This document shows positions 1,654 to 9,705 of a DNA stretch of 10,676 nucleotides, one piece after another. Both the position numbers and the translations under genes were made by a program. The notes under the pieces were generated by a model. The model had not been told where the DNA came from and ran no database searches. It saw only the letters and a program-made list of their open reading frames with translations. The stretch comes from Rugosibacter sp. (GTDB lineage: Bacteria; Pseudomonadota; Gammaproteobacteria; Burkholderiales; Rhodocyclaceae): NCBI GenBank assembly GCA_030652715.1, contig JAUSQB010000358.1, positions 1 to 10,676 on the forward strand, read 5' to 3'. Each line of letters starts with the position of its first letter. Positions within the stretch are counted from its first letter, which is position 1.

Positions 1654-2748
1654 ATGGCACGACTATTCAACTTTAGCGCTGGCCCGGCGGCTTTGCCCGA
1701 GGCGGTTCTCAAGCAGGCAGCAGAAGAAATGCTGGATTGGCATGGCAGCGGCCAATCAGTCATGGAAATGAGCCACCGTGGCAAAGAGTACATGGGCATC
1801 CATACGCAGGCAGAGGCTGATCTGCGTGAGCTGTTAGCGATACCCGCCAACTATAAGGTGCTGTTTTTGCAAGGGGGCGCTACGCTGCAGTTCGAGATGA
1901 TTCCGATCAATCTGTTGCGCGGCAAGGCCAGTGCGGATTACGTGAACACCGGCGAATGGGCCAAAAAAGCCATCAAGGAAGCCAAGCGTTTTGGCCAGGT
2001 CAATGTGGTGGCTTCCAGCGAAGATGGCAGTTTTTCTTACGCTCCCGCTTTAGCCAACTGGAAGCTCGATCCGAATGCCGCTTATGTGCATTACACCGCG
2101 AACGAAACCATCGGTGGCGTTGAGTTTCATTGGACACCCGATTTATCCCAAATGCCCGGCAATGTGCCGCTTGTCTGCGACATGTCTTCCAATATCCTTT
2201 CGCAGCCAGTCGATATCAGTAAATATGGTCTTATCTATGCAGGTGCGCAGAAGAATATCGGCCCTGCCGGGCTCACGCTGGTGATTGTGCGTGATGATCT
2301 GATTGGCCAAGGCGTGCCGCAGCCGCAAACCATGCTCGACTATAAAACGCATGCGGACAACGACTCCATGTACAACACACCACCTACCTATGGTATTTAC
2401 ATTGCCGGCCTGGTGTTCCAATGGCTCAAGCGGCAGGGTGGTTTGACGGCAATGCAAAAGATTAATGCCGAGAAGGCAGGCATTCTTTACAACTATCTTG
2501 ATCGCAGTTCGTTTTACAGCAACCCTGTTCGCGTCGAAGACCGGTCTTTGATGAATGTCCCCTTCACGTTGCAAGATGCCGCGCTAGATGATGCCTTTAT
2601 CAAAGGCGCACAAGCCCAGGGCATGATTCAATTAAAGGGACACCGCTCAGTGGGTGGGATGCGCGCTTCCATTTACAACGCCATGCCGATTGAGGGCGTT
2701 AAAAAGCTGGTTGCTTACATGGAAGAATTTGCAATCGCTCACGGGTGA
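1654..2748 (+). CDS. serC: phosphoserine aminotransferase
   Basis: A 364-residue PLP-dependent class V aminotransferase. It converts 3-phosphohydroxypyruvate plus glutamate to phosphoserine (serine pathway, step 2). In bacteria it usually also acts on 3-hydroxy-4-phosphohydroxythreonate for pyridoxal phosphate synthesis. The sequence shows the SerC start FNFSAGPAALP (residues 4-14), the GGATLQFEMIP segment that contacts cofactor phosphate, and the PLP-lysine motif GAQKNIGPAG with Lys200, equivalent to E. coli Lys198. The length is normal for the family. The start at 1654 is chosen because the homologous region begins there and GGAGG precedes it. It sits 7 bases after gyrA and 4 bases before the serA-like gene, which catalyses the preceding pathway step, so the two are probably co-transcribed. 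No sign of damage. Confidence 0.97.
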   Translation: MARLFNFSAGPAALPEAVLKQAAEEMLDWHGSGQSVMEMSHRGKEYMGIHTQAEADLRELLAIPANYKVLFLQGGATLQFEMIPINLLRGKASADYVNTGEWAKKAIKEAKRFGQVNVVASSEDGSFSYAPALANWKLDPNAAYVHYTANETIGGVEFHWTPDLSQMPGNVPLVCDMSSNILSQPVDISKYGLIYAGAQKNIGPAGLTLVIVRDDLIGQGVPQPQTMLDYKTHADNDSMYNTPPTYGIYIAGLVFQWLKRQGGLTAMQKINAEKAGILYNYLDRSSFYSNPVRVEDRSLMNVPFTLQDAALDDAFIKGAQAQGMIQLKGHRSVGGMRASIYNAMPIEGVKKLVAYMEEFAIAHG

Positions 2749-2752
2749 TGTG

Positions 2753-3946
2753 ATGGCTTCCCCTTACAGAATTCTGCTACTGAACCAGATTTCTGCCTCA
2801 GGCCTTAAGTGCCTGCCGGAAGCCCGCTATCTTGCGAGTAAAGAGATCAATGCGCCGCATGCGATTCTCGTGCGTTCTGCGGATATGCATGCAATGATGA
2901 TCCCCTCCAGCGTACGGGCGATTGCTCGTGCGGGTGCTGGCACCAATAACATCCCGGTCAAGCTGTTAAGTTCGCGCGGGGTGCCGGTGTTTAATGCGCC
3001 GGGCGCAAATGCCAATGCGGTAAAAGAGCTGGTTATCGCCGGGATGCTGCTTGCCGCAAGAAATTTATCTGAAGCGCTCCAGTTTGTTGCCATGCTTGAT
3101 CGGGCTGATCCTGACATGGAGAACAAGGTGGAGGATGGCAAGAAGCTGTACTCGGGTTTTGAGTTGGCTGGAAAAACATTGGGCGTTGTTGGCTTAGGCA
3201 AAATCGGTTGTCTGGTAGCTGACGCTGCAATCAAGCTGGGCATGCATGTTCTGGGGTTTGACCCGGAAATTACTGTGGATGCTGCCTGGAGCCTGCCTGC
3301 CCAGGTAAAAAAAGCGAACAGTGTTAGCGAGGTGTTGCGGCTGTCAAACTTTGTAACCCTGCATGTTCCTTTGATTGAAGCGACGAGCCATCTAATCAAT
3401 TCAGGCAATATCGGTAGCATGAAGCAAGGTGCTGTGCTGCTTAATTTTTCGCGTGCAGGCATAGTTGATGAAGCGGCTGTCGTTGCTGTCTTGAAAGAAA
3501 AAAAGCTGGGGCATTACGTGTGTGATTTTCCGTCGGCTGTTGTCAATCAAAGCCCGGGCGTCATTGCTTTGCCGCATCTGGGCGCCTCAACGCGCGAGGC
3601 AGAAGAAAATTGCGCCGTGATGGTGATCAACCAGTTAGCTGACTTTCTCGAACATGGCAATGTGATCAATGCGGTGAACTTTCCCAACGTCAGCATGCCG
3701 CGTGAATCGAGCGACCGGATTGCGATTGCCAATGCCAATGTACCCAATATGGTAGGGCAGATTTCAACGGCTTTGGCAGAGGCCAAACTGAATATCCATA
3801 ACATGGTGAATAAGTCGCGCGGTGACATGGCCTACACCCTGGTGGATGTGGATAGCACAGTCAAGCCCAGCGTGATTGAGGCCATCCGAAAAATTGAAGG
3901 CGTGCTTGATGTACGGTATTTGCCACTGGAGGGCATGCATGACTGA
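2753..3946 (+). CDS. serA: D-3-phosphoglycerate dehydrogenase, short ACT-domain type
   Basis: A 397-residue D-isomer-specific 2-hydroxyacid dehydrogenase. The expected reaction is NAD-dependent oxidation of 3-phosphoglycerate to 3-phosphohydroxypyruvate, the first step of serine synthesis. Visible parts are the N-terminal substrate-domain half (GAGTNNIP near residues 62-69), the Rossmann NAD site GLGKIG (147-152), the substrate/catalytic Arg234 in NFSRAGIVDE, the catalytic His275 in LPHLGAST, and a C-terminal ACT domain (about 325-397, NVPNMVGQI), probably for serine feedback. The usual DVFxxEP segment with the catalytic Glu is replaced by CDFPSAVV (D258, F259, P260, A262). I believe DFP forms occur in a short PGDH subfamily, so loss of activity is not implied. 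The ATG at 2753 is 4 bases after the serC stop; the longer frame from 2654 overlaps serC and is rejected. No strong Shine-Dalgarno site is visible. Its 3' end overlaps pheA by 8 bases. Confidence 0.9.
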   Translation: MASPYRILLLNQISASGLKCLPEARYLASKEINAPHAILVRSADMHAMMIPSSVRAIARAGAGTNNIPVKLLSSRGVPVFNAPGANANAVKELVIAGMLLAARNLSEALQFVAMLDRADPDMENKVEDGKKLYSGFELAGKTLGVVGLGKIGCLVADAAIKLGMHVLGFDPEITVDAAWSLPAQVKKANSVSEVLRLSNFVTLHVPLIEATSHLINSGNIGSMKQGAVLLNFSRAGIVDEAAVVAVLKEKKLGHYVCDFPSAVVNQSPGVIALPHLGASTREAEENCAVMVINQLADFLEHGNVINAVNFPNVSMPRESSDRIAIANANVPNMVGQISTALAEAKLNIHNMVNKSRGDMAYTLVDVDSTVKPSVIEAIRKIEGVLDVRYLPLEGMHD

Positions 3947-5018
3947 TGCAGAGCAGGAATTAAAAAAACTGCGCGAGGGGATTGATGCGCTGGATGCTGA
4001 TTTATTGCGCATCATTAACGAGCGGGCAAAAATTGCCCAGCGCATAGGCAAGCTTAAACAAGGGGCGATTTATCGGCCAGAGCGCGAAGCGCAGGTTTTG
4101 CATCGTGTGGCTGAAGCGAATCCCGGCCCGCTTACGGCCATTGCTGCTCAGCGCATTGTGCGTGAAGTGATGTCTGCGTGCCTGGCGCTGGAACAGCCGC
4201 TGACTATTGCCTATCTTGGTCCGGCGGGTACCTATTCAGAGGCCGCAGCGGCCAAGCATTTTGGTGCTGCGCCGACGTTTTTACCTTGTCCTTCGATTGA
4301 CGAAATTTTCCGTGCAGTGCAAGCTGGTACTGCACATTATGGCGTTGTGCCCGTTGAGAACTCAACAGAAGGGGCGATTGCCCGCACGCTGGATTTATTG
4401 CTGTCTTCCCCGCTAATGATTTGCGGTGAAATTAACTTGCCGATACATCATCAATTAATGGGCCATGCTGATTTGCAGTCGGCAGCACATGTGTATTCTC
4501 ATGCTCAGTCATTGGCGCAGTGTCACGAGTGGTTGAATCATCACCTGCCTGCAGTCGCCCGTGTTGCTGTTGCTAGCAATGCCGAGGCAGCGCGGCTCGC
4601 CGCACAAGAAAAAAATGCGCTGGCCATCGCTGGCGAAAAGGCTGCCGAGCTGTATGCGCTACCTGTTCTTGCGGCCAATATTGAGGATGACCCCGGTAAT
4701 ACGACGCGCTTTGTTGTCATTGCAGAACACGACGCCGGGCCATCAGGCAGTGATCGAACCTCGCTCATCTGTTCGGCAAAAAATCAACCCGGGGCGGTGT
4801 ATCACCTGTTGGCACCGTTGGCAGAACAAGGGGTGTCAATGACGCGTTTTGAATCGCGCCCGGCACGCAGTTGGGGCGGCAAGCGCTGGGAATATGTTTT
4901 TTATCTTGACATCGAGGGCCATCAACAGGATGCAGCTGTAGCCGCAGCCCTTGCAGCGCTTGAGCAGCGCGCTGATTTTGTCAAAAGTCTGGGCTCCTAC
5001 CCTAAAGCTGTCTATTAG
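3939..5018 (+). CDS. pheA: P-protein: chorismate mutase / prephenate dehydratase
   Basis: A 359-residue bifunctional cytoplasmic enzyme of phenylalanine synthesis: chorismate to prephenate, then prephenate to phenylpyruvate. Residues 1-88 form an AroQ-type chorismate mutase helical domain (LKKLREGIDALDADLL, then GKLK and RPEREAQVL). The prephenate dehydratase domain starts at YLGPAGTYSE (92-101), continues through VENSTEGAI (139-147) and ends with the catalytic TRF motif (256-258). A C-terminal ACT domain carries PGAVYHLL and the ESRP motif (305-308), which binds phenylalanine for feedback inhibition in characterised P-proteins. The start at 3939 is set by ATGACTGA, where pheA overlaps the serA stop by 8 bases; the frame upstream of this is serA sequence. 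Length and domain order are normal for proteobacterial PheA. hisC follows after 21 bases. Confidence 0.97.
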   Translation: MTDAEQELKKLREGIDALDADLLRIINERAKIAQRIGKLKQGAIYRPEREAQVLHRVAEANPGPLTAIAAQRIVREVMSACLALEQPLTIAYLGPAGTYSEAAAAKHFGAAPTFLPCPSIDEIFRAVQAGTAHYGVVPVENSTEGAIARTLDLLLSSPLMICGEINLPIHHQLMGHADLQSAAHVYSHAQSLAQCHEWLNHHLPAVARVAVASNAEAARLAAQEKNALAIAGEKAAELYALPVLAANIEDDPGNTTRFVVIAEHDAGPSGSDRTSLICSAKNQPGAVYHLLAPLAEQGVSMTRFESRPARSWGGKRWEYVFYLDIEGHQQDAAVAAALAALEQRADFVKSLGSYPKAVY

Positions 5019-7012: not shown

Positions 7013-7109
7013 TCGGCCTATCCTGTTGTCTGTCATGATTCGATGAGTTCGTAATGCCTGTCGTAATGTACAGAGTGATTGAAGTTTGCGAAGCCACTGA
7101 CCGTTGCCA

Positions 7110-7124
7110 AGTGATAGCATCACT
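7110..7124. promoter_or_regulatory. upstream palindrome, candidate operator O1
   Basis: AGTGATAGCATCACT has perfect 6-base inverted arms with a 3-base centre. It shares the pattern GTGA-n-AG-nn-TCAC (10 of 15 positions) with the palindrome at 7152-7166. The centres (7117 and 7159) are 42 bp apart, about four helical turns, so a bound regulator would sit on the same DNA face at both. The role as an operator is inferred. Confidence 0.5.
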
Positions 7125-7151
7125 ATGGGTGCCGGGGCTTGCAATGGCGCT

Positions 7152-7166
7152 GGTGACAGTGTCACC
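7152..7166. promoter_or_regulatory. promoter-overlapping palindrome, candidate operator O2
   Basis: GGTGACAGTGTCACC is a perfect 7-base inverted repeat around a single central base. It covers the proposed -35 hexamer (GTGACA, 7153-7158) of the toxin-antitoxin promoter, so a protein bound here would block RNA polymerase. Autorepression by the antitoxin/toxin complex is common in such loci and is the simplest reading, but the binding protein is unknown. Confidence 0.55.
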
Positions 7167-7182
7167 GTGAAAATAGTATAAG
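7153..7182 (+). promoter_or_regulatory. probable sigma-70 promoter of the toxin-antitoxin operon
   Basis: The -35 box GTGACA (7153-7158) matches TTGACA at 5 of 6 bases. The -10 box TATAAG (7177-7182) matches TATAAT at 5 of 6, with an 18-base spacer. A start of transcription near 7189 would leave a leader of about 30 bases before the antitoxin ATG. Confidence 0.55.
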
Positions 7183-7204
7183 GTCAGCTTTTTATTGTGA
7201 GTTT

Positions 7205-7210
7205 GGGGGA
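7205..7210 (+). promoter_or_regulatory. ribosome binding site of the antitoxin
   Basis: GGGGGA is 7 bases before the ATG at 7218, good spacing. It favours that ATG over the GTG at 7215, which would leave only 4 bases. It is among the clearest Shine-Dalgarno sites in the window, fitting high antitoxin expression. Confidence 0.6.
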
Positions 7211-7217
7211 CTGAGTG

Positions 7218-7436
7218 ATGAATGTACGCGTGGAAGCGGTCGTGGAAATGGCCAGAACGTGGGCGACAGAGGATCAGGCCGAGCTGCTGGATGCGCTGTT
7301 CGGTTTGGTCAGTCCGGTCGGTGATGATTTGGAGGCGCAATGGGTCAATGAATGCGAAGATCGCTGTGCCGCGATAGATAGCGGCGAAATGCCGGTGATT
7401 GCTGCTGAAATGGTCATGGCCAAATATCGTCGTTGA
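7218..7436 (+). CDS. antitoxin of the PF09720 addiction-module family
   Basis: A 72-residue acidic protein resembling the addiction module component family (PF09720, often paired with ParE-like toxins). It has an N-terminal helix-forming half (about 5-31, EDQAELLDALFGL), then an acidic linker and the family-like C-terminal block with Trp42, the spaced acidic/basic pattern ECEDRCAAIDSGE (45-57), and the IAAEMV segment that would fold against the toxin. Its expected role is to bind and neutralise the toxin encoded directly downstream and to be degraded by host proteases when synthesis stops. No recognisable helix-turn-helix or ribbon-helix-helix DNA-binding motif is evident, so which component binds the palindromes is open. 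The stop overlaps the toxin start by one base (TGATG), a typical arrangement for translational coupling. Family assignment is from pattern memory. Confidence 0.8.
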   Translation: MNVRVEAVVEMARTWATEDQAELLDALFGLVSPVGDDLEAQWVNECEDRCAAIDSGEMPVIAAEMVMAKYRR

Positions 7437-7735
7437 TGGAACTCCGTTTTTCGGTAGCAGCTCAAGTTGAACTGGATGAGGCATTCGGGTATCTGGAAGC
7501 CGAGCAGGCGGATTTGGGCTACCGTTTTACCGCTGATATAGATGAGGCGCTTGGCCGTATTCAGATGTACCCACTGGCGTGGCATCCTCTAGGGCACAAT
7601 TTGCGGCGCTGCCACTTGAGGCACTTTCGCTATGGTGTGATTTATCGAATCCGGGGTGACCAGGCAGAAGTCGTCGCCATCGCGCATGACAGCCGCGAGC
7701 TTGATTATTGGCGTGATCGGTTGGGCACGAAGTGA
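7436..7735 (+). CDS. ParE/RelE-superfamily toxin
   Basis: A 99-residue basic protein with the ParE/RelE toxin pattern (PF05016). An N-terminal strand (LRFSVAAQ) leads into two helices with VELDEAFGYLE (11-21) and LGYRF (27-31), then a P-x-W-H-P-L-G turn. The beta-sheet core carries R57/R58, FRYGVIYRI (64-72), VVAIAHDSRE (79-88) and the terminal YWRDR (91-95). The HDSRxxxYWxxR ending is characteristic of ParE-like members. ParE proteins poison DNA gyrase, whereas RelE proteins cut mRNA in the ribosome. The RelE catalytic set is not clearly present and the pattern is closer to ParE, but the target cannot be decided from sequence. It is intact and full length, preceded by its cognate antitoxin with a 1-base overlap, so the module is probably functional. 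gyrA lies 5.8 kb upstream, presumably by coincidence. Confidence 0.83.
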   Translation: MELRFSVAAQVELDEAFGYLEAEQADLGYRFTADIDEALGRIQMYPLAWHPLGHNLRRCHLRHFRYGVIYRIRGDQAEVVAIAHDSRELDYWRDRLGTK

Positions 7736-7899
7736 ACCTGAAAGTTACGCGAGAAATTTGCTGTAACGATTCAGCGGCTGGCCTGGACCCATTTGATTTA
7801 CTGTTGTCCGCAAAAGTCGGCGCTGACGGGACGGCGTATGGGCAAAAAGAACCGCGATACGTCCCTTGTTTTCTAACTGTTTGAAACCTATCTCAATCT
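7736..7899 (+). other. 164-base spacer between toxin and HNH gene
   Basis: No credible gene. It contains the weak hairpin at 7828-7865 followed by a T-rich run, and an in-frame TGA at 7882-7884 that limits how far upstream the HNH gene can start. I see no clear promoter or Shine-Dalgarno site for the HNH gene, so it may be expressed from the toxin-antitoxin promoter or a non-consensus promoter. Confidence 0.6.
7828..7874 (+). terminator. weak possible terminator after the toxin
   Basis: GGGAC…GTAT (7828-7832, 7836-7839) can pair with ATAC-GTCCC (7857-7865), with a 3-base bulge and a 17-base loop. TTGTTTTCT follows. The bulge and long loop make it a poor terminator; it could be a leader structure of the HNH mRNA instead. 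Confidence 0.25.
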
Positions 7900-9504
7900 A
7901 TGTCGTCGTTACTCCTTAGCCGCCTATCTGGCGAAGACCGTCAGCAGCTCATTCAGCATCTTTATCTCGCGCAGAAGCGTAGTTGCTTCATATGTGAGCA
8001 GCCGATTGATCTGGTTGCGCAAAAAAATGCGATTGACATCGACCATGTCGTGCCATTGAAAGTGGGCGGCAAAGATGATCCGGCTAACTTTGCGTTGACC
8101 CACGCAAGTTGCAATCGCTCCAAACAGGCTTCCAATTTGGAGGTAGCACGCATCCTTAGTCGCTTTTCGCAACTGAAGGAGAAGCTGGCAGCCAGGAATT
8201 TATCGCCCAATCTTGGCGACTTGCTGACCCAGGCCGGGGGTGGTAATCACTCCTTGGGCTTTAGCTTGATCGGCGATACCTTGTCCTATAGTTTCAGTGA
8301 GCTGGGAGACAACACGGTAAGGACGCTGCCTATCTATGTGGATGAGTTAAGCGGCTTTCGCTTTTTTTTTGCAAAACTGCCGATTCAGTATTTGGCGCAT
8401 GATGCGCACATCAACCCACGTTCAATCGGCAGCAATATCTCCAAGCTGGTAGAAGAATTTTTTAACAAACGGCCTCAATTGCATGTTCCTTTAGGATGGA
8501 TTTCCAGCAAAGATAATCGTAGTGCTATTCATGTGTTTGATGGACAGCATAAGGCGGCAGCGCAAATCATGTTGGGCGCAAAGTCGCTGCCAGTGAGGGT
8601 ATTTATTGACCCTGATCCAGATACGTTAATCACAACCAATACCAATGCAGGAACAACGCTGAAACAAGTTGCATTTGATAAATCGGTACAGCGGCATTTA
8701 GGTAATACGCTCTACCAGGAACGTCTGCAACGGTATCGAATAGCTACGGGGCGCAAGGATGATGATCTGAATTTCTCCGAACGGGATTTGATCAACCATT
8801 TCAAGGGGCAGGCGCGCGAGATCAAGCGTTACATTCTGGATTCAGTTCGTACCGGTGTGACGTCAGATCCAGGCAATAAGCTGATTAGCTTCATTGACAT
8901 GTCTGGACGCGGTACGGATCACCCGTTGTCATACAGCACGGTGGAGAAAACCTTCTACTCGTTCTTTATTTATCAAGAGGTGCTGGAAACACCCATTGAT
9001 TATCAGATGGAAGAAGGGGAGAACCCGCGCGAAGTAGAGCGCAGTCAGATTGTCGCCCTGATGAACCTGATTGCTGAATCTCTGTACATTGACAAGTTCG
9101 ATGACAGTGTTGGTACTGACAAGATTGAAAACAAACTGCGCAAGGGCGAAACCTTCAGCCATGACCACTTGCGAGCCTACCGTCTAAGCAAGGAAGAGAT
9201 CGTCTATAACTGGCTACAGTACATGAGCCAGATTGCAAGGCAATATTTCATTATGCAAGGAAACCCCGACCCTCAAGATAAACTCTTTCAGTGTCGATTC
9301 CCTGAGCCGGTATGGGAAAACATGCGCAGGTTCTTGAAGAGCCTTGGTGAGCTTCCAGTATGGGTTAACACAGAATTGTCTGAGTCAGTATTCGGCGGCA
9401 AGCAGAACAATAATTTCTGGAAAACCATCTTTGAGACGGGTAAGACCCCGCAGGGCATGCAGGTGCTGGTCAAGCCTATCAATCTGATAGATATGATCAA
9501 GTAA
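7900..9504 (+). CDS. HNH endonuclease fused to a DndB-like DGQHR-type domain
   Basis: A 534-residue protein I recognise by domains only. Residues ~25-76 form an HNH (beta-beta-alpha metal) nuclease domain: CFIC (29-32), IDIDHVVPL (46-53) with Asp48 and catalytic His49, GGKDDPANF with Asn63, and THASCNRSK (67-75), giving a Cys-Cys-His-Cys zinc set (C29, C32, H68, C71). The rest (~140-534) is a DGQHR-type region with FDGQHKAAA (213-221; DGQHK in place of DGQHR) followed by LPVRVFID and NTNAGTTLKQV. That motif marks DndB, a DNA-phosphorothioation regulator, and related ParB-like folds. Intact and cytoplasmic, with no signal or membrane segment. The start is constrained by an in-frame TGA at 7882, but no ribosome site is visible. 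Sampled lines are AT-richer than neighbouring genes. It lies beside a toxin-antitoxin pair in an otherwise housekeeping operon. The likely role is DNA recognition and cutting (defence or selfish), by inference; no modification genes are adjacent. Confidence 0.8.
   Translation: MSSLLLSRLSGEDRQQLIQHLYLAQKRSCFICEQPIDLVAQKNAIDIDHVVPLKVGGKDDPANFALTHASCNRSKQASNLEVARILSRFSQLKEKLAARNLSPNLGDLLTQAGGGNHSLGFSLIGDTLSYSFSELGDNTVRTLPIYVDELSGFRFFFAKLPIQYLAHDAHINPRSIGSNISKLVEEFFNKRPQLHVPLGWISSKDNRSAIHVFDGQHKAAAQIMLGAKSLPVRVFIDPDPDTLITTNTNAGTTLKQVAFDKSVQRHLGNTLYQERLQRYRIATGRKDDDLNFSERDLINHFKGQAREIKRYILDSVRTGVTSDPGNKLISFIDMSGRGTDHPLSYSTVEKTFYSFFIYQEVLETPIDYQMEEGENPREVERSQIVALMNLIAESLYIDKFDDSVGTDKIENKLRKGETFSHDHLRAYRLSKEEIVYNWLQYMSQIARQYFIMQGNPDPQDKLFQCRFPEPVWENMRRFLKSLGELPVWVNTELSESVFGGKQNNNFWKTIFETGKTPQGMQVLVKPINLIDMIK
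8362..8370 (+). repeat. T9 homopolymer tract inside the HNH gene
   Basis: Nine consecutive T bases encode Phe155-Phe157. Loss of one T would lead to TAG at 8450-8452, and gain of one to TGA at 8400-8402. Either slip would leave the HNH domain but remove the DGQHK region. It is the longest single-base run I noticed in the window. Confidence 0.85.
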
Positions 9505-9705
9505 AAGGAATCAAAGAGCCGGGGTGAATTGCTTTCCTTGTTAGTCTTGTATATATCAACGACTTCACTTGTGCTGACTGAGCAAGATGCACCTTTACGC
9601 TGATGATGTGTCAGGTGCCGACGGTGCAAAGAAAGACAGATGAGCTACCACTGAGAGCGGAAGAAAAGTTTATGTTTGGAGCCGTGTGCAATACAAATAG
9701 ATAAT
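9505..9705 (+). other. 201-base spacer between HNH gene and aroA
   Basis: No credible gene; the only start-to-stop run noted is 18 codons. It is AT-rich at both ends. It holds a possible weak promoter (TTGCTT 9529-9534, 17 bases, TATATC 9552-9557) and a short inverted pair GCACCT/AGGTGC (9589-9594, 9613-9618) with a second GGTGC at 9623-9627. No strong terminator after the HNH gene and no Shine-Dalgarno site before aroA are visible. Confidence 0.6.
9529..9557 (+). promoter_or_regulatory. weak candidate promoter for aroA
   Basis: TTGCTT (3 of 6 to the -35 consensus) and TATATC (4 of 6 to the -10 consensus) are separated by 17 bases. The match is poor, but aroA is cut off from its usual operon by 2.7 kb and needs either read-through or a promoter of its own. 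Confidence 0.2.

Follow-up and report, generated by a model that had tools for sequence, protein, structure and literature searches.

A mobile gene for an HNH protein with a conserved DGQHK region in Rugosibacter, a putative anti-phage effector

The phage-restriction effector SspE is described as binding marked DNA, whereupon GTP is hydrolyzed by means of the arginine of its DGQQR motif and its HNH domain is licensed (PMC13251355). GmrSD joins a ParB/Srx-like NTPase to an HNH domain (PMC4619093), ParB-HNH proteins are described as auxiliary effectors in BREX loci (PMC12839542), and bacterial fusions of a ParB-CTPase with a PF01844 HNH domain were named briefly as novel (PMC12704722). Other HNH nucleases in dnd loci were listed in PMC10853773. 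The four genes of ARMADA type II were reported to be enough for protection of E. coli; in the main text of that preprint, ParB and DndB do not appear and HNH appears in one reference only (PMC12458937). In the literature that we searched, the string DGQHK did not occur and the relevant case pairing DGQHR with HNH was GmrSD. No title or abstract on ARMADA, ParB/HNH, DndB, or DISARM described the family reported here.

Here we describe a gene encoding an HNH domain followed by a DGQHK region, found in a 10,676-nucleotide stretch of Rugosibacter sp. DNA (hereafter, the window). We consider it fairly likely that the protein is a mobile anti-phage effector of the restriction type, whose HNH domain would be gated by a DndB/ParB-like nucleotide domain.

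HNH domain and DGQHK region

The window contains gyrA (3' part), serC, a serA-like gene, pheA, hisC, tyrA, and aroA; these names were assigned by eye from the translations, and tyrA was confirmed by Pfam. Between tyrA and aroA lie, in this order, an antitoxin-like gene, a ParE/RelE-type toxin gene, and the HNH-DGQHK gene (Table 1). The ORF of the last proved to be exactly as given in the first-pass annotation.

Table 1 Features of the tyrA-aroA interval, with positions in the window
Feature	Position	Strand	Basis
HNH-DGQHK gene, intact, ATG start, 534 aa	7900..9504	+	ORF list
HNH nuclease domain, residues 29-76, catalytic-type D48, H49, N63, and N72	7984..8127	+	PF01844, residue conservation
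DndB/DGQHR-like core, about residues 205-242, containing FDGQHK	8512..8625	+	hhalign
FDGQHK (residues 213-218), by analogy with DGQHR/DGQQR and SspE a putative nucleotide-binding signature	8536..8553	+	
Antitoxin-like protein, part of insert	7218..7436	+	PF09720, 25.6 bits (cut-off 23.3)
ParE/RelE-type toxin, part of insert	7433..7735	+	PF05016, 42.3 bits (cut-off 23)
tyrA-aroA insert, approximate limits	7013..9705	.	Empty sites in congeners

The N-terminal part of the protein matched PF01844 with 35.3 bits, above the gathering score of 21.4, and the catalytic H49 was present in all 231 homologues of the main subfamily; on these grounds the protein was assigned to the HNH endonucleases. The complete HNH motif noted at first (C29, C32, D48-H49, N63, H68, and C71) was confirmed at every residue, as was the position of FDGQHK. 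The main subfamily was defined as the 231 homologues of 505-565 aa among the 240 matches listed. In these, C29, H49, N72, K75, and D214-K218 were identical throughout, and D48 and N63 were identical in 230. About 204 of the 231 keep the zinc set C-C-H-C, while 26 have it in another arrangement, with C32 changed to G, H68 to C, and C71 to H.

A second subfamily (P0241-P0360) was reached through L078, a protein from a Verrucomicrobiota-sample genome that is 22% identical to the window protein. Its members are about 490 aa long, with 500 scored relatives, and the two subfamilies are about 22% identical to each other. When 12 of the 360 homologues were left out for a length outside 505-565 aa or 470-560 aa, DGQHK was found in all 348 homologues of both subfamilies, and FDGQHK in 347 (231/231 in the main subfamily and 116/117 in the second). 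Conservation of at least 95% in both subfamilies was observed at, among others, C29, H49, N63, D168, P173, R174, Q193, F213-K218, N247, F259, R377, E380, H423, and W488. Such conservation in homologues indicates that the co-occurrence of HNH and FDGQHK is not due to chance. The HNH residues are thus conserved across the main subfamily, in line with the initial interpretation, but less so in the second, where histidine mostly replaces both D48 (97 of 117) and N72 (96 of 117). In a solitary homologue (L034, G746 C3:171285-172877), the D-H-N-N residues are kept and most zinc ligands are lost, the positions of C32, H68, and C71 being T, F, and A, respectively.

With three queries, 2603, 2033, and 500 related proteins were scored, in overlapping sets whose looser matches may share the HNH part alone. 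The family occurs in bacteria and, judging from source names, in archaea. Identity with Septu PtuB, Cas9, or IscB was considered and rejected, because the match is confined to the HNH stretch: PADLOC matches to PtuB and Cas9 fall within residues 8-90, and the NCBIfam scores are far below the curated cut-offs. Matches to solved structures were also confined to HNH stretches.

The HNH domain is followed by a conserved region of about 400 residues containing FDGQHK. After about residue 95, no Pfam or NCBIfam match above cut-off was obtained, and the few matches seen all had E>0.1. Using hhalign, we compared a family C-terminal profile of 28 representatives with 17 DndB-like proteins and obtained a score of 47.0 with a probability of 77% over 38 columns. 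The 17 proteins came from 21 PF14072 places, for each of which a central ORF with DGQHR or DGQQR was required (L053, L057, L091, and L092, having none, were left out); accordingly, the DndB set was itself chosen with the motif. When the DndB columns were fully shuffled (n = 60), the best score was 18.9. When the DGQHR block was kept during shuffling (n = 60), the best score was 34.3 and none of the 60 reached 47.0. Hence, the likeness to DndB exceeds the pentapeptide, over a short extent. A smaller set of eight DndB-like proteins had given a probability of 41.5%, and for DndB against GmrSD it was 72%.

The window protein showed no match to PF14072 (DndB) at E<=1 and none to the DUF262 model (PF03235); PF14072 found no match in the window's genome either. 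TIGR03187 was matched by one of nine family members, with an E of 0.076. The DGQHR pentapeptide proper is absent and is replaced by DGQHK, with a conservative K for R. Against solved structures, the DndB set gave one weak DUF262 protein (E 0.68). Taken together, the HNH-DGQHK family is probably related to the DndB/DGQHR proteins, as judged from these profiles. The initial description of a single protein with an HNH and a DndB/DGQHR-like part is therefore supported by a profile match that beats the shuffles, but the window protein itself matched no DndB model at E<=1. DndC (TIGR03183) was found in none of 16 carriers, several of them incomplete, and the control genomes showed weak matches in 5 of 14, none above cut-off. 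This agrees with the description of the gene as lying outside any dnd cluster and, with the incompleteness of several carriers in mind, makes dnd-type phosphorothioate an unlikely ligand in the carrier hosts. On a different contig (C391:850-1293, L089), the genome of L015 (G851) encodes a distinct DGQHR protein (PF14072).

Neighborhoods and ARMADA-like operons

We compared the neighborhoods of 20 loci (the window, L001-L015, L079, L080, L100, and L101). The resulting fractions are rough, since the underlying search picks up close relatives only and some of the contigs break off early, that of L002 at 226 bases downstream. In six loci, a DrmMI/type-IIG-like methyltransferase gene was located upstream in the same direction, abutting the HNH-DGQHK gene in L010, L011, and L012 and separated from it by one ORF in L013 and L007 and by two in L101. 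Two further loci (L006 and L008) were convergent with type III restriction-modification (R-M) genes. Four loci (L003, L005, L009, and L100) lay among mobile-element or phage genes, including those for an MqsA antitoxin and IS-like proteins (by eye) in L003, a resolvase in L005, an integrase and a transposase in L009, and a resolvase and a terminase in L100. Eight loci (the window, L001, L002, L004, L014, L015, L079, and L080) had no defense gene close by, as judged mostly by eye and, for L002, L014, L015, L079, and L080, wholly so; in L015, an apparent type II R-M pair is located 8.6 kb downstream. Defense-type methyltransferase or R-M genes thus adjoin a minority of the loci (8 of 20, a raw count without a random-gene baseline), which supports the defense role suggested at first as a probable one. 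The contexts were mixed rather than uniformly housekeeping. A Toprim protein was observed near the L005 copy (9943-12888) and an ArdC/Toprim protein near the L008 copy (1773-4094). L008 additionally encodes a TraG-type coupling protein and an S26 peptidase and is therefore probably part of a conjugative element.

In four loci (L010, L011, L012, and L013), the genes followed an ARMADA-like armA-armB-armC order, with a DrmD-like SNF2 helicase, the methyltransferase, and a downstream YprA/DruE-like helicase. The last is 2112 aa long in L013 and 51% identical over 2132 columns to the copy in L102, the continuation of L010; in L011 and L012 it is cut off by the locus end, before armD. An armD-like GajB/UvrD-like helicase gene was present in L013 and L010/L102. 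This gene order matches ARMADA type II as presented in PMC12458937, by our own assignment without phylogeny. As the four ARMADA genes suffice in E. coli, the HNH gene would be an extra there and not a required component.

In L010, L011, and L012, the ATG of the HNH gene overlaps the methyltransferase stop in the same manner as at the CTGATG junction of E. coli L095, where the helicase start sits at the methyltransferase stop. Five plasmid records (two from E. coli and one each from Klebsiella, Aulosira, and Nostoc) carry a methyltransferase 45-47% identical, with genes matching in size and order; PADLOC supports this for three L095 genes and two L096 genes, and annotation and size for the rest. 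The helicase directly follows the methyltransferase in four of the five, and a 558-base gene lies between them in the Nostoc record. Among the 16 carriers, an ARMADA-type methyltransferase (E<=1e-30) was detected in five. The 102-kb viral contig L101 carries a copy with 47% identity, lying between genes for a DrmMI/IIG methyltransferase and for a DruE-like helicase. The armA-armB-armC-armD operon is absent at the window. The statement that no modification or helicase gene is adjacent holds for the window but not for several relatives, and the suggestion of a one-gene defense system fits the many solitary loci but not the relatives inside methyltransferase-helicase operons.

After the HNH gene, L011 and L012 have MkoA- and MkoB-like genes, and L010 has a second DrmD-like gene and PDC-M16A/B genes. 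Together with HNH-DGQHK and HipA-like genes (L010/L102), these make up the extra defense-like genes at the armB-armC junction; in Nostoc NIES-25 the gene at this junction is a small one without known function. The junction may thus be a site where further defense genes are added to ARMADA-like operons, and if so, new effectors could be found by position.

These operons raise the question of whether the protein is mainly a subunit of an ARMADA/DISARM-like R-M system, in which the methyltransferase would protect self DNA and the HNH protein would cut, solitary copies being strays or using other methyltransferases. Consistent with this, the methyltransferase was beside the HNH gene in all five carriers that have it, the start and stop codons overlap in L010-L012, and the methyltransferase/DruE-like linkage recurs in the distant relative L101. 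On the other hand, the methyltransferase was missing from 11 of the 16 carriers, including G746 with an estimated completeness of 100%; no HNH-DGQHK gene is annotated in the five plasmid operons, tblastn found none in plasmids, and the solitary copies of the window and L001 are under strong purifying selection, as described below. We consider a subunit role unlikely. A plug-in effector, still somewhat less probable to us, would have its DGQHK domain read host methylation (an ArmB-type or other mark), and nucleotide hydrolysis would license HNH to cut unmarked DNA, as a counterpart of SspE that slots in at the armB-armC junction or acts alone with other marks.

Insertion, transfer, and distribution

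In the eight other genomes of congeners, tyrA and aroA were directly adjacent in five, an insert was present in one (G004), and the site was unreadable in two. The locus of G004, a Rugosibacter MAG, is L001 and carries the same tyrA-aroA insert as the window. A ParE-type toxin-antitoxin pair (7218-7735) shares this insert with the HNH-DGQHK gene. The G+C content of the HNH-DGQHK gene was 0.479, against 0.57-0.58 for tyrA and aroA. No integrase or transposase was found among the insert ORFs of at least 60 aa, no direct repeats of at least 12 nt flank the insert, no RNA families were matched, and promoter and terminator scans gave scores below the shuffle means.

Between the window and L001, nucleotide identity was 93.7% for the HNH gene, 85% for the toxin-antitoxin stretch, 87% for aroA, and 72-75% for tyrA, hisC, and pheA. 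The dS of the HNH gene was 0.237, and that of aroA, pheA, hisC, and tyrA was 0.49, 1.65, 1.95, and 1.70, respectively. The dS of the HNH gene, far below those of pheA, hisC, and tyrA, indicates a recent transfer. The similarity of aroA does not by itself point to co-transfer, because three congeners without the insert likewise show 85-87% identity in this gene. The dN/dS of the HNH gene was 0.095 for this pair and 0.032 and 0.058 for two other pairs; the gene is under purifying selection. The copies of L013 (10001-11606) and L014 (10001-11604) are split by a frame change and are either decayed genes or assembly errors.

Full-length matches, the window's genome included, were found in 2 of 101 relatives, 1 of 369 genomes of the class, and 2 of 398 of the phylum; partial HNH-domain matches (two among the 101 relatives and six among the 369 of the class) were left out as members. 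In the phylum of L015, 2 of 240 had full-length matches, one being the distant L078. The proteins of Variovorax L011 and the gammaproteobacterial MAG L012 differ at 6 of 534 residues and are paired in the family tree, in which 17 of 29 inner branches are starred and 8 are open. The copy of a Bradyrhizobiaceae MAG (L004) groups there with mostly betaproteobacterial copies; some tree members being MAGs, misbinning is possible. The gene is a recent insert and is horizontally mobile.

Such a distribution bears on the view that the protein serves DNA repair or chromosome maintenance through a ParB-like domain. In its favor, ordinary genes surround eight of the 20 loci, segregation proteins include some with ParB-type folds, and an actin-like ALP_N gene follows the L009 copy; nevertheless, absence of the gene from nearly all sampled relatives, its recent transfer, and the lack of parA in the ORF lists (inspected by eye) make this view very improbable.

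Viral and plasmid sequences were also searched. By tblastn, the window protein matched nothing in 72,556 plasmid or 50,697 phage records, and among viral contigs it found no close relatives. Pattern scans with the family alignment, run over 2.9 million viral contigs, gave two relatives. One copy, 56% identical (L100, 4274-5890), is located between resolvase and terminase genes on a 27.7-kb viral contig, a position that suggests carriage by a phage or prophage. This copy and the conjugation genes (TraG, ArdC) adjoining L008 would fit a phage or mobile-element gene captured by chromosomes, acting in packaging as an HNH protein, in superinfection exclusion, or in competition between elements. The scarcity of viral relatives and the empty phage and plasmid searches argue against it, and we hold it to be very unlikely. 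Least probable is a selfish homing-type HNH gene spreading by cutting empty sites: HNH is common in homing enzymes, the tyrA-aroA insertion lacks an integrase gene, and neighbors vary between genomes, but the insert holds a toxin-antitoxin pair, the genes on either side change from one locus to the next, about 400 further residues hold dozens of invariant positions, and coupling to defense genes is repeated.

Proposed mechanism and comparison with known systems

For the anti-phage effector that we favor, we infer nuclease activity, nucleotide binding, gating, and anti-phage function as follows. The N-terminal HNH domain would cut DNA, and the C-terminal DndB/DGQHR-like core, presumably a nucleotide-binding one of the ParB-superfamily type, would keep HNH off until a signal arrives. 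Candidate signals are foreign or modified DNA and a replication or translocation intermediate. The gating would parallel the use that SspE makes of its DGQQR domain: by analogy, K218 may take the place of the DGQQR arginine, and nucleotide binding may gate the N-terminal HNH. The protein would act alone at many loci, including the window, and would supplement ARMADA-like methyltransferase/helicase operons as a further effector. Against this explanation we count the eight loci of 20 without defense neighbors, the 38-column extent of the DndB evidence, the lack of a GmrSD match, the fact that ARMADA does not need the HNH gene, the split copies of L013 and L014, and the separate DGQHR protein of G851. 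If the explanation is true, a large family joins the nucleotide-switched HNH restriction enzymes, with the domain order reversed and no dnd modification genes.

A direct link to GmrSD was tried and rejected: hhalign against six GmrSD proteins (six of the 19 places found) gave no match at DGQ, and the only match was a chance one in the C-terminal part (E 0.26).

The family resembles DndB/TIGR03187 in the profile match around DGQHR and the following strand, and it has an LxxTN (243-247) that is similar to the FxxxN motif. It differs from DndB in the K for R, the fused nuclease, the missing PF14072 match, and the absence of DndC from carriers. The loci L010-L013 are like ARMADA type II in having armA-, armB-, and armC-like genes in order, with an armD-like gene in L010/L102 and L013, but they have an extra gene between armB and armC. 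The fusions named in PMC12704722 combine a ParB-CTPase with a PF01844 HNH, as the HNH-DGQHK protein may; inclusion of the HNH-DGQHK family among them is not evident from that brief passage, which mentions no defense context. With GmrSD, the family shares an HNH domain and, putatively, a ParB/Srx-like part, whereas in GmrSD the ParB-like part comes first and a DUF1524 HNH last, and in the family a PF01844 HNH is N-terminal. SspE, described as a phage-restriction effector (PMC13251355), likewise has a DGQ[QH][RK] domain and an HNH nuclease in one protein, but there the DGQQR GTPase comes first and HNH is C-terminal, whereas the family has HNH first and DGQHK. We describe the HNH-DGQHK family as resembling GmrSD and SspE in reversed order, rather than as a member of either.
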